Shown in pieces: positions 5,088 through 63,600 of a stretch of DNA of 64,000 nt; position 1 is the first letter of the stretch, and each line of letters begins with the position of its first letter. The stretch covers positions 18,201,998-18,265,997 of the forward strand of contig NC_088314.1 of the NCBI RefSeq assembly GCF_910592395.1. The letters run 5' to 3'. This DNA is from Lineus longissimus. Its lineage: Eukaryota > Nemertea > Pilidiophora > Heteronemertea > Lineidae. A program made the position numbers and the translations under genes. The notes beneath the pieces are model-generated. The model was given only the letters and a program-made list of their open reading frames with translations. It ran no database searches and was not told the origin of the DNA.

Positions 5088-5318
5088 TAGAGAATTACTT
5101 CGATTGTGTGGGATCACGCCATGAATTTAATCATTCCTTGGGGGAGTAAAAACGTACCTGCCAACACTTACTATTTGATAGTAGTTTCTACAAAAAATTT
5201 CGGGGCAGCATTGCCAATCTGTTGCAATCAACAGTGTGAAAAAATCAATGTGACGATAAAAACACAACACTGCGCTGTCCATAATCTTGCATAAAGTATG
5301 ATTTTGCAGTGTTACAAT

Positions 5319-9206: not shown

Positions 9207-10028
9207 TCAGTAATATTTCTTCTTTACTCTGGACCTTGGCAATCTGATCGGCCGCAGGTATGGATTATCAACCTCGGCTTCATTGTTACTGTCACCACCT
9301 GTCCCCATCGCCTTCTTGTCTTTCTCCTTTTTTTCCGAATCATAAGAATCAAGTTCAAAGTCTTTGGGCAAGAGCGCTGATAGGTAGGGCATGGTAGAAG
9401 GCGAACATGCAATCAACGGATAACTCGTCGTCTCGGATCTAAACAGGTTATGAGTAGTCCCAGTTTTAGCGATGAATCGTGTAAGGGCTCGTTCTACATC
9501 CCGTTTCTGCGAGGCTGCTTTTTCTCGTATAATTTGATATTCGTTAACTGGTTGTCGTTGAGTGTCCGTCGTAATGTAGGAATGAGGATCTGGCAAGGGT
9601 GGCAAATATTCTGGAACATATCCTGGATGAGGTCTCTTGTCACCAGTTTGTAATGACTTATGTGGCGGATGATCCACCTTATGCGCAGGAGGGAGAAGCA
9701 CTGTTTTATTGGTTCTTCTGGCATAAGACAACAACGAACGGACATTGCACCCCATATCAATTTGCGCCATCAAAACGTCTCCGTACATCGGTTTCGTCCG
9801 ACACGCAAGTTCAGCATAGGCTTTACTGCTCCTCGCTAACTCAACTATGTAACTCTGCATGGCTTCAGTTAATGTTTCTAGGGCACTGTTTTCAATAGTG
9901 CCAAAGCCAATCTCACTACACAAAGCACCAGCACTGATCCGCAACATCTTTCGTCGACCATCACTGACAGTTTTTGTTGTGGGGCCACTTGATGCTCCAT
10001 CAGATTCCTTCGAAGTAGACATATTCAT
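9207..10028 (-). CDS. TAF8: TFIID subunit 8 (TAF8), intronless
   Basis: A 273-residue open frame on the minus strand, uninterrupted by introns. TAF8 is a histone-fold subunit of the general transcription factor TFIID and pairs with TAF10 in the nucleus. Residues about 27-95 form the histone fold (RKMLRISAGALCSEIGFG through MAQIDMGCNVRSLL). Around residue 135 lies the family hallmark PGYVPEYLPPLPDPHSYI. This is followed by the conserved helical part of the TAF8 C-terminal domain (NEYQIIREKAASQKRDVERA). The tail is acidic and lysine-rich and ends in a basic KKKYY, plausibly a nuclear localisation element. Human TAF8 is about 310 aa, so this looks full length. The ATG at 10026-10028 is the only sensible start before the histone fold. 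It lies 473 bp from the divergent CCDC66 ATG. Lack of introns is unusual beside heavily split neighbours; ancestral intron loss or retroposition are both possible. Confidence 0.95.
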   Translation of the reverse strand: MNMSTSKESDGASSGPTTKTVSDGRRKMLRISAGALCSEIGFGTIENSALETLTEAMQSYIVELARSSKAYAELACRTKPMYGDVLMAQIDMGCNVRSLLSYARRTNKTVLLPPAHKVDHPPHKSLQTGDKRPHPGYVPEYLPPLPDPHSYITTDTQRQPVNEYQIIREKAASQKRDVERALTRFIAKTGTTHNLFRSETTSYPLIACSPSTMPYLSALLPKDFELDSYDSEKKEKDKKAMGTGGDSNNEAEVDNPYLRPIRLPRSRVKKKYY

Positions 10029-10501
10029 TTTCTATATAAATTACTCTTTCTTTTGAAACCAGATCCGGTTCAAAACAATGCTTTAGTTAGGTAGGAGAGC
10101 AAGAAAAACATTGAAATTTTCTCTGGCTTCTCAAATCATGGAGGCGGCCATAATGGATATTAGGGTCAAGGTCACTTTATTTGTCAGGTGGTGGATCTCC
10201 CTGACAAATTTCTGTTTTTCTCTTCCGAAACTCATACCTTTGTCAATAAAGAAGTACTTTGATTTATCCAGAAATGATAATTAAATACTAAATTAAGTAA
10301 TGTTCAGAAGTTTTTAAGGCTACAAAATTTACATTATTTATTAGCTTGACATAATTTTTGATTTGATGCATTGAACTCCTCCTCCTGGTTCAGATTCAAG
10401 TTGGACATGCGCAGTTTGCGGGTTTCTAACAACTTGGAATTTTGAAAAAAGATGAATGTGATTTTATTTTTCTAGTGTTTCTACAAAAGTGACTTGTTAA
10501 A
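10029..10501. promoter_or_regulatory. Probable bidirectional promoter, TAF8/CCDC66
   Basis: The 473-bp interval between divergent start codons must hold both 5'UTRs and core promoters. No TATA box is placed convincingly for either gene. The interval is AT-rich on the CCDC66 side. The call rests on gene geometry, not on a recognised motif. Confidence 0.55.
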
Positions 10502-22500: not shown

Positions 22501-25500
22501 GTGGGAAGGGCAAACCGGCAGACGCCGAGGATACATGGGCAGACAAGATGAGCAATTATAAATCTGCGGCGCTGCCGGAACAGGGCGACAGCGCCGTGCG
22601 GGCGAGCACTGCGCCCAAAGAGACCGTGGAGGAGAGCGATGTAGCCTTCCCGGCGCAATTATCGTAAGTCTTCTTCATCTTCTTCTTCAGCTCTGCACTT
22701 GGAGGGATTAGTCTCCAGGGAGTATTCCTCCTCTAAGGCGGGATGAGCGTTTTTACGTGCCCTTAAGTTTTCGGCGCCAATCCCGTGACTTCAGCCAGAG
22801 GTAGAGTCCTCGCAAGCTACTCATGTTTCTCACCTGGTAGGGTCTTTCGCTTGCCCTCGCATAGACACCAGATACAAGGAATTGGGCTTATTGGCCAAGT
22901 AACTCTTGACTTCAGCCAGAGGTAGAGTCCTCACAAGGACTCATGTTTCTCACTTGGTGGGGTCTTTCGCTTACCCTTGCATGGACACCAGATACAAGGA
23001 ATTGGGCTTATTGGCCAAGTGACTCTTGACTTCAGCCAGAGGTAGAGTCCACGCAAGCTACTCAGGTTTCTCACTTAGTGGGGTCTTTCGCTTGCCCTCG
23101 CATAGACACCAGATACAAGGAACCAAGTATGTGTAAAAAGCTCTTTTTATGATGAGGTTTTGCTTTTATTGATATCGTTATTACTGTTGTTATGATTCAG
23201 TTTCATCGTCATTGTTTCGTCTTTTAGAACATTCATTCGTGGCCAGAACACGTTAATCGACCCGGCCACCATGCAGGAGCTCGCCGATAAACGCCGGCGC
23301 CATCTTGAGCACCAGCAAGCGATCCAGGACCAGGTGGAGGAGCGTCAGCGGTTGAAACGCGAGGAGCGTGAACGCAAGATTCGGGAAGAGCAGGAGGAGG
23401 AGCGCAAACTGCAGGCACAGCGCGACAATTTACAACGTCAGTTCGAGATGGAACAGTTAAAACAGAAGAAAAAAGAGGTCAGTGTTGTTTTGACTCGATG
23501 TGATCTGGACCAGATCTCACTCATTTGTTTTCTCTGGCCAGACAGCTCAGGTGCGGATCCAAGGGGGGGGGCGCACATGGCGCATACCCCCCCTCCCTGA
23601 TTCATGAAAATCTTTGAAATTGACCATGAAATTTTGGAACACAACAGGAATTTTGATGAGAAATGCAGTCCTCCCCTTGCTCCTAGATCTGCCCCTGAAG
23701 CTCCCGACCTGTATGCTTTCTGTGGCTGGAGAAAAATTAACTCGGTGTCTTGGATCACACACTCCAATAGTATTCTTGCTCCATTTCACAATGTAACTGC
23801 ATTTCAGCAGTCAAAGACAATAAAAAGTAGATTTGTCTTCTGGTACTGACCGGTGTGTGCTATTTTCAGTATGATACGGACGTGCGCATCCAGAAGCTCA
23901 AGGAGGCCATGGACCAGGCTCAGCAGGAGGCCATGCAGGAGAAGCATCTCAAGAGGATCCAGCATCTAAAGGACCACGGCCACGACATCTCACAACTCCA
24001 TAAAAGTTTCGAAGGTGAGTTAAGCAAATTTATTTCAGGCAGGTGGGGGGGGGGGGTAAACTCTCTTTTTCGGAGTCACATTAAAGGAAGTTCTGTAATA
24101 GTTTCAACAGTTACAAAGTTTTAGGTTTTGGGCCCAGTTCTTTGCTTCAAAGAAAAACTCTTTGTTTTTTTTCGAGTTCCGGCTGAGCGAAATATTAGGA
24201 TACTATGCTAAGGATTTTCAATCAACACCACAATTGGCAGAAAAGTTGGGGGAAAATTTCCCAATTTAGTATACGGTAATAGGCTTGTATGTGAACTGTG
24301 TTCAATTTCGTTGGCCCAAATTTTGGCCCGATGCGAATGACATGTAAACATGAGCAAAATTAGTTATCAAATTTTGCAGTGATTGCCTCATTCTTTCATG
24401 GGTTCTCCTTTTCTCAGCCAAATACACCCCACGAGCACCAACGACGATACCTGATTCCACGATCGTCCCCGGTCTGGACATCACCCCAAGGCAGACCGAA
24501 CTTCCCCAGGAAACCGACCTGACGAAGTTCCGGCATAATTCAGAGCCAGAGATATTCTCACACAGGAAAGAGTCTGGAGTGCAAACAGGTCAGAACTAAA
24601 TGCAGCTTGGCAGACTTTTTGCTTGGATTCTTCAGGAATTGTTGTGGTTGGTCGAATACTGTCGCCATTTTTGTAGGCCTGGTCAAATTGTTTGTTACAA
24701 GCTCAACTTGTTTGTGGGTGTCTCAGTTCAGCTCCTTACTACGAGACTCATGACCCAACGTTGGCCAGCTGGACACCTATGTACACCTCGATGGAAATAA
24801 GCCAGTGTGGTTAAGTGCCTTGGCCAAGCAAGGCACTCTATATGTTATGATACTGGTCGGCCATCTGATGAAAAACCACTCTCCAGTCGCTGACTTGACT
24901 GTAAATTCTGGCCTTAGTCAGTTCATACTCGAATTTCATTTCAAAAGAGATTTCCATCAAACGCCTGTTTTGTAAGTTTGCTTAGACTCGTTCTTTCTGC
25001 CTGTACCAGTCAGTGATAAATTTCCTGTACCTTCTTTTCTGATCTGTTTTAGATTTCAATGGTGCTGCTGATGTTGTAGAAAGAACGGCAGACACAACAA
25101 AAAACCGAGATAACAGTGCAGGTATTCAGTACAAGGGGCCGGTCAATGAACGACCCGCAGTAAATCGTGGAAACAAGGGTCGCGAGAAGAAGGTCCGGTT
25201 ACGGAGCGCGAACTCGGCACCGGCATCAAAGGATAAGATGGCGCCACCTGTTTCACAGGTACCCCCGAGGCCGCGTAAACCTGCACAGAAGCCAAGATGG
25301 AATCAACCAAAGGAGCAAAAGGCAAGACCCATGAAACAATCTGAGAAGGATCCCACGTATCAGCGCCGGAGACAGCAGTCGGAACAACGCCGATTGAAAC
25401 GAGAGCAGCAGTTGATAGCGATGCAAGAAGCTAATATGAATCGTATACCAGCGTCGGAACGAGGACGATCAAGGTCGCCCTCTGCTGGTAGATATGGTGA

Positions 25501-37416: not shown

Positions 37417-40400
37417 TCAGCTCGTATTCTGTGACGAGAAACCGTGGCCCATTTGTTTATAATACTCCTTCTGAAGATCTTGCAGATTCTCCTCCAGCAT
37501 TTTCACCTCGTCAAGTTTATTAGCTTTACGGGCCTGTTTAATATATTCACGTATGATATTCATCTGTTGCACCATGGGATCCGAGTTACTGTGAGCCCGC
37601 TGGTTGACATCGGCCGGGATCCATCCCGAATCTCGCACAACACTCGAAGCGTCCTGGTCTAATATCGTCCTCGTCTGATCAGGTGTTAAAGAATTTTGTC
37701 GACGTTTTTCTCGCCCGTCTTTATCACGTGCGTCTTTCTCGCGTGCCTCAATGGCCGCTTGACGTTCAATCGCAATTTTACGCTGCACCTCTCGCTCGCG
37801 TTCATCTTGTAGTTTCTGCAGTTCGACTTCGCCAGGCAGTGATTGTAATGTCAACATATTATCATGCAGATAATGACTAGCGTATATTCGGATAAATTTT
37901 TGGAGCTGAACAACTTTTGGGTGTGGTTGTTCTTCGTGATTCATGCCAAGCCCCTGTATTCTTTTGCTGAAATTGGAAATTGAGATAAAGTAACTAAGCA
38001 GCCTCTGTAAGTAATATATCATTTGCCAAGCTTTACCTAATTTGGGCATATTTTCCAATGATTTCATTGTCTTGGAGTTAAACTTCTGTCTGTCAAGTCA
38101 AAGTTGGTCAAGGAAGCTAACTTAAGGAAAATTCTATACAAGTTTTTCAAAATTTGTCATCTCGCAGTTTGCCCACTTATTTTCTTGTGTACACAAATCA
38201 TGACTTAAACAATATACCCACTATCCAACCACTAACTTTTGAGAGCAGATGTTGTGAAACACTCAATTAGTTTTGCTAGGCCTTAACACTGTCGCAGCTG
38301 AGTAGTTTTGTCCCTTAGCCTCGTTACACACACACTAGGCTTTAATTCTACAATACTGAGTTAACTATGAAATAAGTATAAAGATTTAAAATTCAAAATT
38401 TGTTAATTCACCTGATCAAGTCAATATTGTCATATAATTTAATGAGTTTGTTCCTTGTGTTGGTCGCTTCCTGGAGGCTGTATGCATTCTCACCAGCGCT
38501 GGAATGGTAAGCAGAAGACGTCAACAAAACCATCAAGCTGAAAGGACTGGGGCTTTTTGAGACAACAGTGATAAGAATAAAGACAACAGATATGAATGTA
38601 GTTTTGGGACAAGTGATACATGTATGAATGTAGTTTTGGGACAGCAGATATGAAAGAAGTTTTAGGACAACAGATACATGTATGAATGTAGTTTTGGGAC
38701 AATAGACATGAATGTAGTTTTGGGACAAGAGATATGAATGTAGTTTTGGGACAACTGATACATGTATGAATGTAGTTTTGGGACAAGAGATATGAATGTA
38801 GTTTTGGGACAACAGATATGAATGTAGTTTTGGGACAACAGATATGAATGAAGTTTTGGGACAACAGATACATGTATGAATGTAGTTTTGGGACAACAGA
38901 TATGAATCAAGTTGTCTGATTTTAGCTCTCCTCTCAATATTGGCTATCTACAATACTTACTTCAGTGAATCGGCCATTTTCTTGAAATCGGGTAAGGAGA
39001 AGTCGGCTTCACACGTACACATCTTAAGTTTCTGAAAACAAATTTAGTTTCATTATTGCTGCCATTGCCAACTCGACCAGCGCCACCTCTCGTTAGAGCC
39101 AACGTTCATGCCTACTACATGCCAACACTTTCGTCATCTACAGACAAATGTTGTAACAAACGTTGCACCTGCCACAAATATAAACTTTCTCAAAAAATAA
39201 CATAAAAAATGATGAAAACACGAAATAAGATACAGTAGAACCTCCCATAGCGGACACCTCTCTATTAAGGACACTATTAAGGACACTAGATTTGGTCCCA
39301 AATTGGGTGTTTCCATAAAATTTGACCTGTCCTATTAGGACACCTTTCTATTAAGGACAGCACTTGTCAGTCCCGAGGATGTCCTTAATAGAGAGGTTCT
39401 ACTGTATATTGAAGTTGCCTCACTGGGATACGAACCACAGTCATATACTGTGTAGACGCTATCCAGCCAGTTGAAGGGTGTCTGTACAAAAGGCCTATCA
39501 TACGTTTTATAGGCCTTGTGGAACAGACACACCAAAATCGGCATATTAGCGTCTCCACAGTATATAAGAATTAGGCCTACAGAAAAATGCCTACATCATA
39601 AAGATCCATGATCACTGGGCGCGTATTCCTGCTCTCGACCTGTTTGTCTCTTCTCTCGAGCAGAGCACGACAGTCCCAACACGTGCGTATGTGTGGATCA
39701 CCTTCTGGGTTGACCATGGAGTTGAGACTCGAGTTGCTTCCCGACCGCCGAAGGAAGCCCACGCCCTCGCTCTCAAACTGAAAAGCTGGATTCGTCAATT
39801 TTTCTGAAATCCAAAAAGACAGACTTGATTTATTTGGATATTTTGTGCAAATTTCAGGGTCTTTTAATCATCATCATCAATTCATCATCATCATCATTCC
39901 CTTAAGTACACTAAATCTCTAACAGGGTTTTGTGGGGGGGGAGGTTTCAAGTCCAAATAAAAATGTCAACATGTTTTGAGTCGAGAACTTGTTCCGTTGT
40001 AGGTGAGATCCAATTGAAATTAACAACACACTGCTTACTATGAACAGTATTAACATCAAGATTTCAGGTGGAGCTCAAATTCAACCCAAAAAATCAGACA
40101 AAGTGCCTCAGGTTAGGGACAACATTTTAGCTCCGTTTAGTCTCAATTTCAGTACAGAAATCCACCAGTGGGGTGTCATTTCCCTGCCTACTCACTTGCA
40201 AACGTAAAAGGCAGAAACTCTGAACACTTATTGCACATAATTCCCCCACAAAGACGACAGTGATGACGGCGTCGAGTCAATGTAAACGCCTTGCCGCAGG
40301 TCGGGCATAGATTCACATCGGCATCTGGTGCCCATGGCACAATCTTTTGTTCGTACACTGGAAGGTAAAAATTAGAGAAATATACACTGGAGGAATGAAA

Positions 40401-51032: not shown

Positions 51033-51605
51033 TTGAGCCAAATCTTGTCTTCCAACACTTTATCATTAGTGATAAGTGACCAGATTCTTGTCTTCCAATA
51101 CCTAATATTAGTAGTGATTAGTGACCAGAATCTTGTCTTCCAACCATTTATAAGTGATCAGTGACCAGAATCTTGTCTTCCAACACCTTACTAGTGATTA
51201 GTGGCCAGAATCTTGTGTTCTAACACCTTGTTAGTGTTAAGTGGCCAGAATCTTGTGTTCTAACACCTTATTGGTGTTAAGTAGTCAGAATGTTGTCTTC
51301 CAACACCCTACTACTACTAGTGATTAGTGGCCAGAATCTTGTGTTCTATTAACACCTTACCAGTGATAAGTACTCAGAATGTTGTCTTCCAAAACCTTAT
51401 TAATGATTAGTGACCAGAATCTTGTCTTCTAACACTTCACTAATACTAGTGATTAGTGACCAGAATCTTGTCTTCTAACACTTCACTTATACTAGTGATT
51501 AGTGACCAGAATCTTGTCTTCCAACACTTCACTAATACTAGTGATTGGTGACCAGAATCTTGTCTTCAACACCTTATTAGTGATTAGTGACACGTAACTT
51601 GTCTT
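51033..51605 (+). repeat. Minisatellite upstream of SLC41 exon 1a, about 40-bp unit
   Basis: About fourteen copies around TGACCAGAATCTTGTCTTCC and AACACCTTATTAGTGATTAG. It ends 27 bp before the exon-1a acceptor. Confidence 0.92.
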
Positions 51606-51631
51606 CTAATACGAAATTGTCTTATTTCCAG

Positions 51632-54600
51632 ACGCACACTGCAGAGGGACCTCAGACAATCAACACGCAACGGAGTTGCATCGCGTCGCAAAACAATCAC
51701 AAGATGGACGATAACGTACGTAGGAGAAAAATGGTTCCAAAAATCGCTACAGAGGGCGCGTCAGTCTCATCTGAGTATGACTTGGATTTGTCATCTGGCG
51801 TTGAGACATCGCAACCCAAGCGATCAGATACTAAAAACGGTGCTTTTATAAAAACTGAGACTTCACTAACTGAATTGAATGATGATACTGATGATCGGGA
51901 CACGACGCCGTTACTTGGCGATGATGAGACGTCGGTGAGAGACCGTGATAAAGATGTTGATGCGGTCGTCGTCGAGGTCAAGGACGGGGACGAGACATCT
52001 CTGACGATCGCCCTTCAGATATTCTTGCCGTACATCATCGCTGGGTTTGGAATGGTCGGTGCAGGAATGGTGCTTGACGTTGTCCAGGTGAGCAGACAGT
52101 TTATTTTCAAATCCACGGGTGATGGAAAATGTCTTCTGAATCATATTTGATATCAAAGGGGTACGCCGTTCGTAAATACTGGTGGTCCAGGAAAAAAGAA
52201 ATACACTAGTATTAGATCATGCATTCAACTTTTCTGAAACTTGTATCCTGTTTACCCAACAGCAAATGTTGAAATTTATATTCAGCTCGTATACTACGCC
52301 AAAAAATTGGAAATTTTCAAATTTAATTTCAAATTTTGCAATTGGTGTAGGTCTTGATAAAGTTCTTGGTACTATCTTGTTCATCAAACTGCCCTCTAAC
52401 AATCTTAAATTCAAAAGCATTGCCCTTCTAAGTACAACTATTAGTCGCAAAATATTGAAAACAGCCACTTGGAGTATGATTCCGGTTTCGGTAGGTGGCA
52501 AAATGACCAATCTCCCGTGAATCCAGTGGTGAAAGTGAACTTCATATCATAGTGTGAATGTAAACCGCCTGGCTTAGGCCTACTGAACACACACCTGTGT
52601 TGCCTCAGTGAAATACAACATCAAACTTCAAAGCCTATGTGATGTAGGCCCTGCTCTTGTTGTGATAGGAGTTCTTGTTTATATATTGTTGAACCTCACA
52701 TTGCGGACACCTCTATTAAAGACACCCTCTCTATTAATGGTGTAGTTGGTCCCAAAGTGGTTGCTTCCATTGCAGACCTCTGTCGTAGGACACCTCTCAA
52801 TTGAGGACAGCATTTGTTAGTACCAAGGAAGGGTGTCCTTGATAGGGAGGTTCTACTGTAATTGTCAGTCCCAAGGGTGTCCTTAATAGAGAGGTTCTTC
52901 GACTTCTGTATTGGCATGATCAAACTCTGGGACTTAACACACCTGTTTTGCCTCCTTGTGTCAATTGGTTGGCTCCATAAAGGCCTATGGTGTGGGCTTT
53001 TCTAAGCCCTAAAGTTTATTAGACATGAAGAAATCAATAAAATATATACCGTGTGTGAAATTCAAAGCAGAAATCAAGGACAACACATCATAATACCCAA
53101 TACAAGTCAGGATTGTAAAGTACAGTAGAGGAGGGAAACCTTTCACATTTTTTTGGTTATTTTTTTCCCCCGAGTGAAAAATTCTGAAGGCATGCAATTG
53201 CAAGTGGATCGGAGTAATGATATGTTCGAGTCCTGATCACGTGGAACAAAATCTGGAGTTTCGAATCAAAATTATTTGTGATGTTTTCACCTCTGCGATG
53301 ATACGTATCAGCCAAAATTTAGGCCTCGTGCTTCATGCATCCAGATGGCTCAAAAACCCTTTGCTGATGTATTTTAAGGTGAAACTCTAAAAATATGTCT
53401 TATCAAAAGTAAAGAATGACAAAATTGGCATCCTCACAAAAAAAATTTTTAAACGCTGGTACGTTCAAATCAAGCTCGGTAACTTCTGGGTTGAAACGTC
53501 TCCATGTTTAAAGAGTTGATCATAGGCACTACCATCTTCGCTGGAACTTGAAATCCTATAGAGGAATTGGAAGACTTTTAAAACGAAGTGAGTGCCAATT
53601 TCAAGGGTGGGAGTCAGTTCCTTGTTTTCTAGAAAACAAAGTCCCACTTTTGAAAAATAGCATTTATTTCATTTGGAATGAGTTCTGCATGTAATTTATC
53701 GCTTCAGGATTTCAAGTTCTAGCCGAAAACCGAAAAGGTGTTGCCCATTATTGTCTACACTTAAACAGTCATTCATAAATAACCAGACAATGACGGCGCT
53801 CGTGACCATACTCTAAATTGTTTCAGTCACAATAGAAAAGTTGATTTATTGAAAGAACACAATTTGTTGCTTTTGTTGGCCTGATGTCACAGATGTTTGC
53901 GGGGAGATGTAATGATGGTTATGCCAAGAGTCGAGATACCGAGATATCGTAGAATTAGTATGTTGTTCAGTCATTCATGTACGTTTGGCAGATGGAGGCT
54001 AAGCGACCGAAGCACCGGGTGTGATGCGTCAATAGACGGGTTACTCAAAGTCTGTCTTATAATTCCGATTATTTGTAATTTCAAAGGAATACAGGATGAC
54101 CTGAGTGATTTCGTTGTCACACAGCTGAGGGAAAATTACCAATATTTTCGACCAGTTATCAATATTTTGTGGAGTGGCTCTTTCGGTCTTCGTTGTTTTG
54201 TGAGATCTCGTCGTTCAACTTTGCGTCAAATGCGGCACATATTGTTGGTTGGTATGGTTCCTCTTGTCGTAGTTTGTGGATTTGCACGGATATCTTGATA
54301 TTTCTCGTCCACATATGGGCCCCTCCTGCCTTCAGCAGGAATGGTTCCCTTGTCTCTCGTTGTGATGACTGTCATGCAATCATTTGAATCAGGCTGCATT
54401 TCGTTGAACTCAGGAACAAGGTTGTCGGCATGAATTACTGGTCTTCGGTGTTAAAAGCAATGTTGTTTTGAATGGTACATATGCTTGAATCATACATGTA
54501 CTTCTTCTGAATGTTCTATGCAGTCACTCCCATATTGATGAAAAAATCTGCCTTTCTTCAGGCTGTTTGTATATCTAATCTGCTCAACACAGCTGGTCCG

Positions 54601-57600
54601 GTCGTGCAAGTTCCCTTGGGCGAAATCTTTCCGAGCAAGAACTGTTGCAAGTCTTTGCTGTCCTGCTTGGATTTTCTACGCAGTTCTTGATTGAAAGCAG
54701 CCGGGGATCTGCACAGTCCAGGCACCGAGGGCATGAAAACAATGACCAAAAGCAGCTGAGCTATCACTCCAGTCCGGAACCACATTCGAGAACGGCGGAA
54801 AAACCATTGTTGATCCAGCGGTGGAATGGACCGCTGCAAAATAATAATTTGCGACAATAATTGCTTGTTTTTGGTGGGTATCGCACATGTCTGCTGTTTT
54901 ACCCGCAGACAAGAGATTCTTATTTTGCGACTTGAGATTTTTTCCTCCATATAAGATGATGTATTGTCAATGTGATGAAAGTTTATTTCGTTTTGAAGCT
55001 ATCCGTTTTTTGTCGTCATTGGCCTGAACAGCACTCTCTCTGGTGACTTGTAAGTGATGTTGGAATAACATCACCTGGAATGATTTAAAACAGTTAACCC
55101 ATGCCATAGTATTATAACAACTTTACAAATAGAACTTGTCAACGATACTGTAGTGTTGCTTCGTAAAATGACGTTAAAAGACGCAGAACGAGTAACAGAA
55201 AATGGATTACATGTGCATGCAACTGGGGATTTATGCGCAGACGGAAAAGAGACGCCCGGCCCGGTCACAGATGTGGACCTTGACGTCCATTTAGCGGGCA
55301 ACGGAGTGCTCCCGACGACTTTTGTAAATGATTGGACCAGAAACCCTGAGGTGATTCCTCTTCTTGACAGTTGTACAGAACACGACTCTTCAGAAACTGA
55401 GGAGACAGAGGATGGTATCGTTATCGAGGAAAATGAGGACAGTTCGTTTCGGATACTCCTGCAGTGTTTTATACCCTATTTATTCGGTGGAATTGGGTTC
55501 GCGCTGACTGGCGTATTGTTTGATTATGTTCAGGTAGGCATTACATTCTCCTTGTCCAAGACCGGAACTCTAGTTATGATGACGTCATTCCGACCCTGCT
55601 TCAACTGGCTGCCATTGCCACCAAATGGCCTTAACTAAGCCATTTCATTACTATGGGGGATCATCTGCTCACTTACCAGCTACGCCCCTGGATAATCCGC
55701 CCCTGGATAATCCACCACCCTCTTTATATCTTTGCAGCATTGGGAAGTATTCCGGAAAGTCTCTGAAGTCTTCATATTGGTGCCGGCTTTACTTGGTCTC
55801 AAGGGCAACCTGGAGATGACGCTAGCATCCAGACTTTCAACGCAGGTAAGAATCTATTCTTTAAGTGCCGCAGAAATGAGCGATATTAGTCGCTGCAATG
55901 GAGCCTTGATGACAATATGACAAGTGATTATAATTTAACCAATTGGTAGCCAAATTCCAACCAATTTAGTCAGATTGTTTTTTCATAAATTTTCTAAAAA
56001 TTGCTTTGGGTTGACAAGAGTGTTCAATTGTTTTTCAGGCCAATTTAGGTAAAATGGATACAGCTAAGGAAAGGTGGAAAATGATAGGCGGGAACCTGGC
56101 CCTGATTCAGGTACGTGTGTGATGTGATGTCCAAGCACGGAACTTGGAAGGCGTATACTTTTGATTGGATGTGGTCAACGCGTGAGCAAACTTATGCTTC
56201 TCTGTTCGAGCTCCTTTGTGCGTCTTTGGAACTTTTTGAGCAACTCGCACATCAGCCTGTCCATACAAGAAAGACTTTCATATTATTGACGGTGGATTAT
56301 TTATTTTCTTTTAGGCACAAGCCATAGTGGTGGGGTTCCTTGCATCATTAGCTGCGATGGTGTTCGGTTGGATCCCGGAGGGGAAGTTTGACGTCAACCA
56401 CGGTCTACTCCTGTGTGCGGCCAGTGTCACCACTGCGTCCTCTGCCAGCTTCGTTTTAGGTAAGCGTAAATCCTAAAAACGTAAATCCTCTACTTTTCAG
56501 GTTGTACAATGGTAACAGTGGTGTTAGGCTCAAGAAAATGTAACGTAAATCCTCTACTTTTCAGGTTGTATAATGGTAGCAGTGGTGTTAGGCAAGGAAA
56601 ATGTAACGTAAATCCTCTACTTTTCAGGTTGTATAATGGTAGCAGTGGTGTTAGGCTCAAGAAAATGTAGCGTAAATCCTCTACTTTTCAGGTTGTATAA
56701 TGGTAGCAGTGGTGTTAGGCCAAGAAAATGTAACGTAAATCCTCTACTTTTCAGGTTGTATAATGGTAGCAGTGGTGTTAGGCTCAAGAAAATGTAACGT
56801 AAATCCTCTACTTTTCAGGTTGTATAATGGTAGCAGTGGTGTTAGGCAAGGAAATGTAACGTAAATCCTCTACTTTTCAGGTTGTGTAATGGTAGCAGTG
56901 GTGTTAGGCCAAGAAAATGTAATGTAAATCCTCTACTTTTCAGGTTGTATAATGGTAGCAGTGGTGTTAGGCCAATAAAATGTAACGTGAATCCTATACT
57001 TTTCAGGTTGTATAATGGTAGCAGTGGTGTTAGGCCAATAAAATGTAACGTGAATCCTATACTTTTCAGGTTGTATAATGGTAGCAGTGGTGTTAGGCCA
57101 AGAAAATGTAACGTAAATCCTATACTTTTCAGGTTGTATAATGGTAGCAGTGGTGTTAGGCCAAGAAAATGTAACGTAAATCCTCTACTTTTCAGGTTGT
57201 ATTATGGTAGCAGTGGTGTTAGGCCAAGAAAATGTAACGTAAAATCCTCTACTTTTCAGGTTGTATAATGGTAGCAGTGGTGTTAGGCTCAAGAAAATGT
57301 AACATAAATCCTGACAACGTTGCGACGCCGATTGCCGCTAGCCTCGGTGACCTCACCACATTAGCATTATTAGCCGCCATCAGTACAGCACTATTTCGTG
57401 CAATCAGTAAGTATGATGTGTTTCGAATTATTGGCAGTAGCCAATTGACCCTACACCCTCCATTAAGGGGCCTACGCTGTTTGGCAAATATTTGAAATTT
57501 GTAATTGAATTTGAAAATTTCCAATTGCATCATACAAAATATAAATTTCAACATTATGGTTGTGTGGACAGATGTTTGAATACTATGTATACCAAATTTC

Positions 57601-60600
57601 AACAAATTGGGATGCGTGATTATATGTACTCCTCTGCGGCATCAGAATATCTGCGTTTCTATTCTCCTGACCCATGATTTAATATGAACGCTGTACCCCT
57701 TTAAGAGTTTGTCGCTAACCACTGGGGCACTCTCAAATGTTGTGCCGCCTGAATCTTATGTATCTTTCACAACTCTTCTGTAACGCTTTGACGGATTTTA
57801 ATTATGGTACTCCTGAGGAATTGTGCGACCGGATTGTGTAGTTAGCTTGAGGGAAAGGTTCCCTCAACAATTGTGTGACAGATTTGTGTTGTTAGCTTGA
57901 GGGAGAAATACCCCTCAGCAACTGTGCGTCAGTGTTCTGTTGTTAGCTTGAGGGAGGGGCACCCCTGAGGAATTGTGTGACAGGGGTGTGTTGGTAGCTT
58001 GAGGGAGGGGTACCCCTGAGGAATTGTGTGATAGGGGTGTGTTGGTAGCTTGAGGGAGGGGCACCCCTGAGGAATTGTGTGACAGGGGTGTGTTGGTAGC
58101 TTGAGGGAGGGGTACCCCTGAGGAATTGTGTGATAGGGGTGTGTTGTTAGCTTGAGGGAGGGGTACCCCTGAGGAATTGTGCATCAGTGTTCTGTTGTTA
58201 GCTTGAGGGAGGGGTACATTGAGGAATTGTGTGACAGTGTTGGGATGTTAACTTGAGGGAGGGGAGTAGGAGACACACTTAGAATAACTTTCGTTCTCCA
58301 TTCTTTCCAGATGGCCATGCGTGGCTTTCTCCTGTGATATTAGGGACTTTCATTCTACTCATCCCCCTGTGGTGCGTGATATCTGCCAAAAATACATATA
58401 CGTCCGAGGTGATATATACCGGCTGGACACCTGTTATATCAGCTATGATGATTAGTAGGTAAGCATGTACACTGAAGGTGATATATACCGGCTGGACACC
58501 TGTTATATCAGCTATGATGATTAGTAGGTAAGCATGTACACTGAAGGTGATATATACCAGCTGGACACCTGTTATATCAGCTATGATGATTAGTAGGTAA
58601 GCATGTACACTGGAGGTGATTTATACCGGCTGGACACCTGTTATATCAGCCATGATGATTAGTAGGTAAGCATGTACACTGGAGGTGATATATACCGGCT
58701 GGACACCTGTTATATCAGCCATGATGATTAGTAGGTAAGCATGTACACTGAAGGTGATATATACCGGCTGGACACCTGTTATATCAGCCATGATGATTAG
58801 TAGGTAAGCATGTACACTGGAGGTGATATATACCGGCTGGACACCTGTTATATCAGCCATGATGATTAGTAGGTAAGCATGTACACTGGAGGTGATATAT
58901 ACCGGCTGGACACCTGTTATATCAGCCATGATGATTAGTAGGTAAGCATGTACACTGGAGGTGATATATACCGGCTGGACACCTGTTATATCAGCCATGA
59001 TGATTAGTAGGTAAGCATGTACACTGGAGGTGATATATACCGGCTGGACACCTGTTATATCAGCCATGATGATTAGTAGGTAAGCATGTACACTGAAGGT
59101 GATATATACCGGCTGGACACCTGTTATATCAGCTATGATGATTAGTAGGTAAGCATGTACACTGAAGGTGATATATACCGGCTGGACACCTGTTATATCA
59201 GCCATGATGATTAGTAGGTAAGCATGTACACTGGAGGTGATATATACCGGCTGGACACCTGTTATATCAGCCATGATGATTAGTAGGTAAGCATGTACAC
59301 TGGAGGTGATATATACCGGCTGGACACCTGTTATATCAGCCATGATGATTAGTAGGTAAGCATGTACACTGGAGGTGATATATACCGGCTGGACACCTGT
59401 TATATCAGCCATGATGATTAGTAGGTAAGCATGTATACTGGAGGTGATATATACCGGCTGGACACCTGTTATATCAGCTATGATGATTAGTAGGTAAGCA
59501 TGTACACTGGAGGTGATATATACCGGCTGGACACCTGTTATATCAGCTATGATGATTAGTAGGTAAGCATGTACACTGAAGGTGATATATACCGGCTGGA
59601 CACCTGTTATATCAGCTATGATGATTAGTAGGTAAGCATGTACACTGAAGGTGATATATACCAGCTGGACACCTGTTATATCAGCTATGATGATTAGTAG
59701 GTAAGCATGTACACTGGAGGTGATATATACCGGCTGGACACCTGTTATATCAGCCATGATGATTAGTAGGTAAGCATGTACACTGAAGGTGATATATACC
59801 GGCTGGACACCTGTTATATCAGCTATGATGATTAGTAGGTAAGCATGTACACTGAAGGTGATATATACCAGCTGGACACCTGTTATATCAGCTATGATGA
59901 TTAGTAGGTAAGCATGTACACTGGAGGTGATATATACCGGCTGGACACCTGTTATATCAGCCATGATGATTAGTAGGTAAGCATGTACACTGGAGGTGAT
60001 ATATACCGGCTGGACACCTGTTATATCAGCTATGATGATTAGTAGGTAAGCATGTACACTGAAGGTGATATATACCAGCTGGACACCTGTTATATCAGCT
60101 ATGATGATTAGTAGGTAAGCATGTACACTGAAGGTGATATATACCGGCTGGACACCTGTTATATCAGCCATGATGATTAGTAGGTAAGCATGTACACTGA
60201 AGGTGATATATACCAGCTGGACACCTGTTATATCAGCCATGATGATTAGTAGGTAAGCATGTACACTGGAGGTGATATATACCGGCTGGACACCTGTTAT
60301 ATCAGCCATGATGATTAGTCGGTAAGCATGTACACTGGAGGTGATATATACAGTGGAACCTCCCTTAGCGGACACCTCTCTATCAAGGACAACCTCTCTA
60401 TTAAGGACACTAGTTTTGGTCCCAAAGTGGTTGTTTCCATTCAATTAGACCTCTCCGAGGGGTGTCCCTAATAGAGAGGTTCCACTGTACTTGCTTGATA
60501 ACTGCATGGTAACATATTGGATTTTTGCCGGAGGAATGTAGTCCACTACAGGCTACTGTCCATCTATGTGGGTGCTTTTACTAGCCCTGGCATAGACACT

Positions 60601-63600
60601 CCGGTACAAGGGATCACTACCTTTAGTCTCATCTGACAGACCCTGAAATATTTATGCGTTGTGACGAGGCAGGAATTTTAGTTCTGGTGCCTCTAGACAT
60701 ACAATACTGGGTCCTCGCCAGTATCCTAGGCGGGCTCTTATGCGTGCTAGGAGACGCGGTGACGCAGTGGTAGAGAGTCGGACTCATGATCCGGAGGTCG
60801 TGGGTTCGATTCCCGGCTTAATCGCCACTTTGTTTCTCCTACTGGTCGAGTTCAAGAATGAGCGCTTTGTAGCTGCTCCTTGAAACCCCAGATTGACTTC
60901 TGTGGAGACCGGGATGATGATAGTCCCAAAGCGCTTGAGAATACCCAGCTATTGAGTAATTTGAGCGCTATATAAGCGCCGACTATTATCATTATTATTA
61001 TTGCTAGCAAGCAGGCTCCACTAGGATATGAGGCTCCTGATGTAGTATTTCAGCTGGGGAGTTTTAGTAGTGTGCAGCACCCAACCTTTTCTCAATGATC
61101 TCTCAGTGTCATCAGTGGCCAATGCATTTCCTTATGAAGCAGGACACGCACCCTGCTTTATACGTGTCTTCTTGCCCTGCCCTTTAAGATTAGTATCTGA
61201 AACACCAGAGGTTTTCTGAATGCCAAACAAGAGTCTCTCGAGCATGTTATTAAGTGTGGTTTGTCTGTTTTTCAGTATGGGTGGCTTGATATTAGACTTC
61301 ACAGTTGCAAACTACCATGGCATTGCGGTGTTTCAACCAGTTATAAATGGTGAGTATTTAAAATTTGGCCCATTCTTGAGGGATGGCGTTATCTGAAGAA
61401 CCTTGGTTACATACCCAACATGTAGACTTCGCGTTGCTTATAAACTGGGCGAGTCCCTTTTTTTCAGTTGTTATGTCCTTTGAATGAGATGTATTTGGGC
61501 AGTGTGGATTGCGGTTAAGGTGTCAGACTTGTTATCCAAATATTCAGGGCTCGTTAAAGTGATACTATGATGTGATTTACAGCTTTGCGGAAATACCTCC
61601 GTTTTTAATTGTTGATCACAAATGTAAAGCTCAAATTTTCCATTTTTGATTAGATTTATTATAAAATCGCTGAATGTAAACCACCGCAACCGCGAAAATT
61701 TTCATGTTGTGACGTCATCAACGAAAACGGCATCGAAGCGAGTCGTCCGTGCGGGATTAAACCATCAATTTCTAGAAAATGTGCATTTGATTCGAAAAAA
61801 AACCTTACCGATTTACGTAGTGACGTAGTCATTTGTCAAAAACAGCTAAAACATTATATAGTGAAATTTGACAGGAGTTACCCTTTAAAGACACAGAGAG
61901 CGGTATATTTGGAAAAATCTGTTTTTCAAATACATGTACTTATCCTTTTTGAGCAGTATATTTCAGCTGAGCGCCTGGCCCTTGGGCCTCTTGTTCGGTA
62001 AACTTCATGGTGCTTCTTCTCTTACAGGTGTGGGTGGTAACCTCGTCGCTGTCCAGGCGAGCCGCATCTCAACCGCCTTGCATCGAGTCAGCAAACCGGG
62101 GGTCCTCCCTCTTGGCTCCGTCAAAGGCTGCCCGAACCCTTGTTCTACGTTCTTTGCAAAAAGTAAGTACAGTAGAACCTCCCTGAGCGGACACCTTTAT
62201 TAAGGACATCCTCTCTATTAAGGACACCCTCTCTATTAAGGACACCCTCTCTATTAAGGACACCCTCTCTATTAAGGACAACCTCTCTATTAAGGACAAC
62301 CTCTCTATTAAGGACAACCTCTCCATTAAGGACAATCTCTCTATTAAGGACAACCTCTCTATTAAGGACAACCTCTCTATTAAGGACAACCTCTCTATTA
62401 AGGACAACCTCTCTATTAAGGACAACCTCTCCATTAAGGACAACCTCTCTATTAAGGACAACCTCTCTATTAAGGACAACCTCTCCATTAAGGACAATCT
62501 CTCTATTAAGGACAACCTCTCTATTAAGGACAACCTCTCTATTAAGGACAACCTCTCCATTAAGGACAATCTCTCTATTAAGGACAACCTCTCTATTAAG
62601 GACAACCTCTCTATTAAGGACAACCTCTCTATTAAGGACAACCTCTCTATTAAGGACACTAGTTTCGGTCCCAAATTAGTTGTTTCCATCCATTTTGACC
62701 TCTCTAATCAGGACACCTCTCTATTAAGGACAGCGCTTGTCAGTCCCGAGGGTGTATTTAATAGAGAGGTTCTACTGTATTGTAACTATTCGAAGAATAA
62801 GGATTAACACTGGCTAAAGGACACCACCTCACACGCAATAAACCCTTGTTAGACTTATTGGATGTTCCGATAGGCTCTACGGTGTGAACTGTTCCTCTTG
62901 TCTAGTCAAATAACCAGGCATGTGACCTTTTGACTGGGACTATGGAGAATGAACATGCTCAATCTTCTCCAAGGTCACAAGTTCACGGCGCCACCAGTCC
63001 ATAAGTCCTCGACAGTCCATAAGTCCACCAACAGTCCATAAGTCCACCACCAGTCCATAAGTCCACCAACAGTCCATAAGTCCACCACCAGTCCATAAGT
63101 CAACCACCAGTCCATAAGTCCACAACCAGTCCATAAGTCCACCACCAGTCCATAATTCCACAAACAGTCCATAGTCCACCAACAGTCCATAAGTCCACCA
63201 ACAGTCCATAAGTCCACCAACAGTCCATAAGTCCGCCAGTCAATAAGTCCACCAACAGTCCATAAGTCCACCAACAGTCAATAAGTCCACCAACAGTCCA
63301 TAAGTCCACCAACAGTCCATAAGTCCACCAGTCCATAAGAGAACAGCCTGAGTACGGATTCCAAAAGTACTAATGTGTGTGCCCCTCCCCCCCCCGAAAT
63401 TGTGTTTTTAAGTTTGTCTCATTTGCATTCCAGACTTAAACTCGAGAACAGCACGAGTATTGATGTTGATGGTAGTGCCGGGTCACCTTATATTCGTCTA
63501 CACCATTCACTATATGAATGCAGGACACACGTCCATCACCCCTATATTTACTTGTTTTTATTTGGTGGCTGCCTTACTACAGGTGAATATTGAAATCTTT

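Follow-up and report, generated by a model that had tools for sequence, protein, structure and literature searches.

Arrays of duplicated intron/exon boundaries

Minisatellite-like tandem duplications of an intron/exon boundary, termed mirages, have been described in amphioxus in Adh3, in the globins BflGb6 and BflGb9, in troponin C and in PGBD5 (PMC3087553, PMC3902484). Adh3 units measure 10-72 bp, BflGb6 represents an acceptor-side form and BflGb9 a donor-side form, and many copies keep their AG/GT signals. RT-PCR together with earlier Adh3 data are taken by the authors to suggest normal splicing (PMC3087553). In human, the 31-bp VNTR of CBS, c.1444_1467+7(16_21), has a unit that by its name takes in 24 nt at the end of an exon and 7 nt at the start of the intron, and a donor site is thus repeated within a working gene (PMC2630376). 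Human genes of segmental duplications with internal tandem repeats have minisatellites at exon-intron boundaries, where new splice sites are possible and where the repeats are described as lengthening exons and introns or as forming new introns (PMC2812944).

Here we analysed a window of 64,000 nt, the whole stretch of DNA under study, from the ribbon worm Lineus longissimus (Nemertea; contig NC_088314.1, positions 18,201,998 to 18,265,997, forward strand). An SLC41A1-like gene in it bears an acceptor-side array on the intron-4/exon-5 boundary, a clean example of this known but little-studied kind, and a second array of opposite polarity on the next exon. As in the amphioxus mirages, the units are minisatellite-like duplications of the boundary which keep their splice signals, and their lengths of 63 and 69 nt fall within the range given for Adh3. 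Unlike amphioxus, where the acceptor-side and donor-side forms are reported from different globins, both lie here on neighbouring exons of one gene, which is another gene in a protostome phylum and is known from sequence alone; the copies number 13 and 28, as against 6 and 3 in two amphioxus BflGb6 haplotypes (PMC3087553). The CBS repeat is like the acceptor array in repeating a splice site but differs in being donor-side, 31 nt long, human and a documented copy-number polymorphism (PMC2630376), and the human boundary repeats alter exons and introns whereas the coding structure is kept in L. longissimus (PMC2812944). A literature search by animal or phylum name, with most subscription journals outside its scope, returned no mirage report for Lineus or Nemertea, and the mirage is likely new for the phylum. 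The occurrence of mirages, known from lancelets, in a protostome phylum suggests their presence in other genomes with many young minisatellites.

Gene model and protein

The gene model comprises ten exons on the plus strand from 55168 to the end of the window, where the gene runs off, and encodes 464 residues with no stop and with GT-AG at all 9 introns. In a protein search, all 464 residues were 100% identical to a public L. longissimus protein (P0001, 509 residues) named 'solute carrier family 41 member 1-like isoform X2', which by its name we take to be a pipeline prediction and whose record may partly be based on protein homology. The similarity search with the model yielded 3831 of 7986 scored proteins at E <= 0.001, the best of them being named SLC41A1-like, and the Pfam domain MgtE (PF01769) was found on the exon 4-5 piece (E 6e-11) and not on the exon 1 piece. 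Solved structures gave no match to the protein at E 0.001. By its sequence, the gene is an SLC41A1-like, MgtE-type predicted divalent cation (magnesium) transporter.

Exon 1 (55168-55533, +) is of the isoform X2 type, the spliced model being identical to P0001. Exon 4 (56315-56459, +) ends in TTTTAG/gtaagc (the slash marks the junction) with the intron after codon position 1, and intron 4 (56460-57259, +), 800 nt long when the thirteenth acceptor copy is used, consists of the array except for its first 18 nt. Exon 5 (57260-57406, +; 147 nt) has copy 13 as its coding acceptor, as judged from the public protein and the alignment. It is followed by an intron 5 of 904 nt and by exon 6 (58311-58458, +; 148 nt), whose coding donor TAG/gtaagc lies after 58458. 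In an alignment of 120 listed proteins out of the 3831 matches, P0001 included, a 27-residue block across the exon 4/5 junction was gapless in 119 of the 120 and carried an insert in none, the exception being P0024, which lacks eight residues just before the junction; a 21-residue block across the exon 6/7 junction was gapless in all 120 of these 3831. As these blocks are gapless and the model is identical to P0001, acceptor 13 and donor 1 are therefore needed for the protein.

Two possible alternative first exons were observed (51704-52087 and 55168-55533), each open in frame to exon 2, and the second alone is present in P0001. A 40/80-nt minisatellite at 51041-51606 stops 25 nt short of a likely acceptor, with an exon start at 51632, that belongs to the region of the upstream alternative first exon.

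Anatomy of the acceptor-side array

TRF delineated the array on the plus strand at 56478-57312 (period 63, 13.2 copies, 95% matches, score 1499), the units measuring 62-64 nt and being typically made up of 11 nt of intron end and 52-53 nt of exon start. Thirteen such boundary-spanning units, each an intron end plus an exon start, stand head to tail. The first exonic bases are 56501, 56565, 56628, 56692, 56755, 56819 and 56881 for acceptors 1-7 and 56944, 57007, 57070, 57133, 57196 and 57260 for acceptors 8-13, with successive spacings of 64, 63, 64, 63, 64, 62, 63, 63, 63, 63, 63 and 64 nt. Between 55000 and 64000 there are 13 occurrences of TACTTTTCAGGTTGT, a 15-mer across the acceptor junction, as against none in 200 dinucleotide shuffles of that region, and the splice signal TACTTTTCAG/GTTGT is kept in 13/13 copies. 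The first-pass annotation had proposed thirteen tandem acceptors of which only the last leads into the full exon, and both the position search and TRF bore this out, as they did the 53 nt of exonic sequence that the last copy contributes to the array (57260-57312). Its start had been placed 12 nt too late, since the 12-mer AACGTAAATCCT at 56478-56489 belongs to the array, and the single acceptor tract described for all thirteen copies holds for ten, which carry CTACTTTTCAG, while copies 9-11 carry ATACTTTTCAG.

The units differ by pairwise edit distances of 0-6. Units 10 and 11 are identical, and pairs one edit apart are 8-9, 4-5, 3-5, 2-6, 4-10, 4-11 and 5-13, so that the nearest pairs are in some cases adjacent and in others not, the copy at the exonic edge (13) being one edit from copy 5. 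Copy 13 is set apart by an A that replaces G within AACATAAATCCT, after which comes GAC, and by one additional A ahead of its acceptor. A single T had been put forward earlier as the marker of the real copy, but the T-bearing form GGCTCAAG, in which the T keeps the exon frame, is shared by copies 1, 3, 5 and 13 (4/13) and so does not mark the real one. In copy 4 (56692-56754), taken as an example, a donor-like AAC/GTAAAT (PWM 4.6) stands 43 nt into the exonic part of the unit; a short pseudo-exon is conceivable from it, and the real exon reads ATAAAT at that place.

An assembly error in the array, or an atypical number of copies as in a rare haplotype, is a highly improbable reading. One mirage in the amphioxus draft genome did look aberrantly assembled (PMC3087553). 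Against this, most copies carry distinct mutations, the only identical pair being units 10 and 11. Moreover, the two arrays measure only 0.8 and 1.9 kb, which long reads easily span.

The donor-side array on exon 6

The donor-side mirage (58406-60351, +) holds 28 copies of a 69-nt unit composed of 53 nt of exon 6 end and 16 nt of intron start, the first donor being coding and the 27 after it pseudo-donors. All 28 copies match the donor signal AGTNGGTAAGC and 27 of them read AGTAGGTAAGC. From each of the 27 later donors the stop AGG TAA is read. The exon-proximal site is thus the coding site in both arrays, namely donor 1 on exon 6 and acceptor 13 on exon 5. The donor-side array is bounded by GAGGTGATATATAC at both ends (58406-58419 and 60338-60351).

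Predicted outcome of splicing to the upstream acceptors

With copies 1-7 as acceptor, intron 4 would measure 41, 105, 168, 232, 295, 359 and 421 nt, and with copies 8-13 it would measure 484, 547, 610, 673, 736 and 800 nt. Each of the twelve pseudo-acceptors (56501-57259, +; the first and the twelfth have their first exonic base at 56501 and 57196) leads to a premature stop, 32-167 nt past the junction and 164-795 nt ahead of the next exon junction (12/12). A stop that lies far enough before an exon junction makes a transcript a target of nonsense-mediated decay (NMD) by the 50-nt rule, and as these distances are 164-795 nt, transcripts spliced to copies 1-12 are predicted NMD targets. The earlier proposal that only the last acceptor opens the coding frame thus stands, stops being found in all twelve upstream readings; its companion, that most units run into the stop internally, applies to nine of the twelve (32-44 nt after the junction), and in copies 1, 3 and 5 the stop comes at 107-167 nt.

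Among the upstream acceptors, copies 1 and 6 leave the total length a multiple of three, which might be taken to favour several productive acceptors that insert repeat peptides and so give alternative protein forms. The in-frame stop in 12/12 upstream readings leaves this reading with next to no probability. Productive alternative isoforms were rejected as contradicted by the sequence, from which only read-through or RNA editing could rescue them.

To compare the strength of the sites we used an acceptor PWM trained on only 8 sites, the gene's other acceptors. Copies 1-8 and 12 scored 6.7, copies 9 and 10 scored 9.2, copy 11 scored 6.2 and copy 13 scored 6.0, the lowest of the thirteen by this 8-site matrix, the twelve others lying at 6.2-9.2. 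A better local signal at the real acceptor was accordingly rejected on this PWM of only 8 sites. Since the 8 training acceptors, left out one at a time, range over 3.9-11.8, the array copies are ordinary acceptors. The first-pass annotation had called the twelve preceding sites strong, and none of them does score below the real site, but by this small PWM they are ordinary rather than exceptional. Despite the small training set, any local model would rank the copies about equal, as the units are only 0-6 edits apart.

TGTAAC precedes 10 of the 13 acceptors, with the second A of the motif at position -22, or at -23 for copy 13; the corresponding position reads TGTAGC before copy 4 and TGTAAT before copy 8, and the motif is missing before copy 1. 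By its consensus we take TGTAAC to be a branch-point-like candidate. With a candidate of their own in 10/13 copies, scanning alone would give copy 1 no advantage. The expectation that a 5'-to-3' scan should settle on the first copy is therefore not supported: scanning to the first AG is described as beginning at the branch point rather than the 5' splice site (PMC1431707), and with copy 1 the intron would be only 41 nt long.

Choice of the correct acceptor

As local sequence cannot single out the last copy, the choice must therefore be made by position. We consider it probable that the acceptor array is a mirage on the intron-4/exon-5 boundary in which exon definition picks copy 13 and errors pass to NMD. 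Exon 5, flanked by long introns of 800 and 904 nt, would form one recognition unit together with its own donor, which lies 147 nt downstream. The exon-proximal acceptor, copy 13, would then win although the local sequence is nearly equal in all copies, and transcripts spliced to copies 1-12, carrying premature stops, would be destroyed by NMD. Exon definition with an NMD clean-up is what we infer as most likely, and the array itself is most likely without function.

This reading draws on human data (PMC9225289). There a splice site pairs with its nearest partner across the unit that is recognised first, so that short introns favour the intron-proximal site and long introns the exon-proximal one, the transition between intron and exon definition being cited at 200-250 nt; introns 4 (800 nt) and 5 (904 nt) both exceed it. 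In five exon-defined minigenes carrying a pair of identical strong 5' sites, splicing went exclusively to the exon-proximal site, and when the identical donors were weakened the larger exons were skipped (PMC9225289). For competing 3' sites, the same paper gives an overall upstream preference that exon definition reduces, with no reversal stated, and exon definition may thus not suffice (PMC9225289).

An array that leaks, in which frequent use of pseudo-acceptors yields nonsense transcripts that lower SLC41A1 output and copy number tunes expression, is on balance unlikely. It would agree with the premature stop behind 12/12 upstream acceptors, with their PWM scores as high as that of the real site and with the tendency of upstream 3' sites to be favoured in human data (PMC9225289). 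It sits poorly with the amphioxus mirages, which reportedly leave regular splicing alone (PMC3087553), and with the other tandem arrays in the gene region, which span no splice site and suggest a general tendency over selection. Still less probable is a copy-number rheostat, in which each unit would be a poison acceptor diverting transcripts to NMD and the donor array would act likewise one exon later; if true, the output of a Mg2+ transporter would be tuned as the number of repeats changes in the germline or in somatic cells.

The arrays are of value more for testing how splice sites are chosen than as a new mechanism. They constitute a natural experiment in which the last of 13 near-identical acceptors and the first of 28 near-identical donors must win, and junction counts there would tell apart, for an animal gene in its natural state, a rule of the first site from rules of the nearest site across the intron or across the exon. 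To identify the acceptor copy, a read must extend 6-96 nt beyond the junction, depending on the copy, and 45 nt for copy 13. At mirages, junctions may be placed wrongly by gene predictors and in short-read alignments. A predicted SLC41A2 of Branchiostoma lanceolatum (P0107) has a 16-residue tandem duplication, VHAKTARVLFLLVVPG, which is absent from P0048 of B. floridae; the annotation may here have taken a mirage copy for exon.

Origin of the arrays

The edges of the acceptor-array units are 12-nt near-identical direct repeats, the intronic AACGTAAATCCT at the left edge (56478-56489, +) and the exonic AACATAAATCCT, coding for N-I-N-P, at the right edge (57301-57312, +). A near copy of this flanking 12-mer, AGCGTAAATCCT, adjoins the donor (56463-56474, +). 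As the residues encoded by the exonic 12-mer belong to a motif that the aligned proteins conserve, some form of this 12-mer is probably older than the array. A tandem duplication between the intronic and the exonic repeat would have started the array, which would then have grown through slippage or unequal exchange. The repeats at the array ends are in keeping with tandem duplication at short repeats, but partial end copies would give the same picture, and the 12-nt repeats could be just such copies, an effect rather than the cause of the array. Arrays of this kind appear to be accidental products of DNA copying.

A birth of intron 4 itself by the tandem duplication, along the lines of the amphioxus globin intron model, would explain why the array makes up the intron apart from 18 nt, and intron gain of such a kind has been proposed for amphioxus (PMC3087553). 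The acceptor tract CTACTTTTCAG is however absent from the joined coding sequence on both sides, so that the intron end is probably older than the duplication, and we regard an origin of the intron in this way as very improbable.

Placed at random in this gene, a 63- or 69-nt unit would lie across a boundary, with no fewer than 10 nt to either side of it, in 9-10% of cases and a 51-nt unit in 7%, and the chance that two of the gene's three long-period arrays do so is about 0.02 by arithmetic after the fact. As this is mildly unusual but post hoc, a boundary-linked cause is conceivable, though we do not claim it strongly. Intron 5 holds a minisatellite of 51 nt x 9 (57806-58264, +; TRF), which was rejected as a mirage as it spans no boundary of the gene model. 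The array at 22786-23122, upstream of a CCDC66-like coding stretch, was likewise set aside since no exon boundary was seen within it by eye. The Pfam survey of the window took in 20 ORFs among the 201 that run from stop to stop over 70 aa or more, and further mirages may lie elsewhere in it.

Other features of the window

A tRNA scan of the window with the bacterial code found none. By Pfam, other genes are TAF8-like (9210-10031, -), CCDC66-like (23196-23597, +) and Rabenosyn-like (37420-38097, -). Two MITE-like elements with TA ends and the inverted repeats TACAGTRGAACCTC and GAGGTTCYACTGTA were observed, one of which (60349-60489) abuts the donor array and the other (62168-62779) contains 25.6 copies of an 18-nt satellite. 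Further MITE-like ends occur at 5318, 5487, 33108, 39231, 39393 and 52847.
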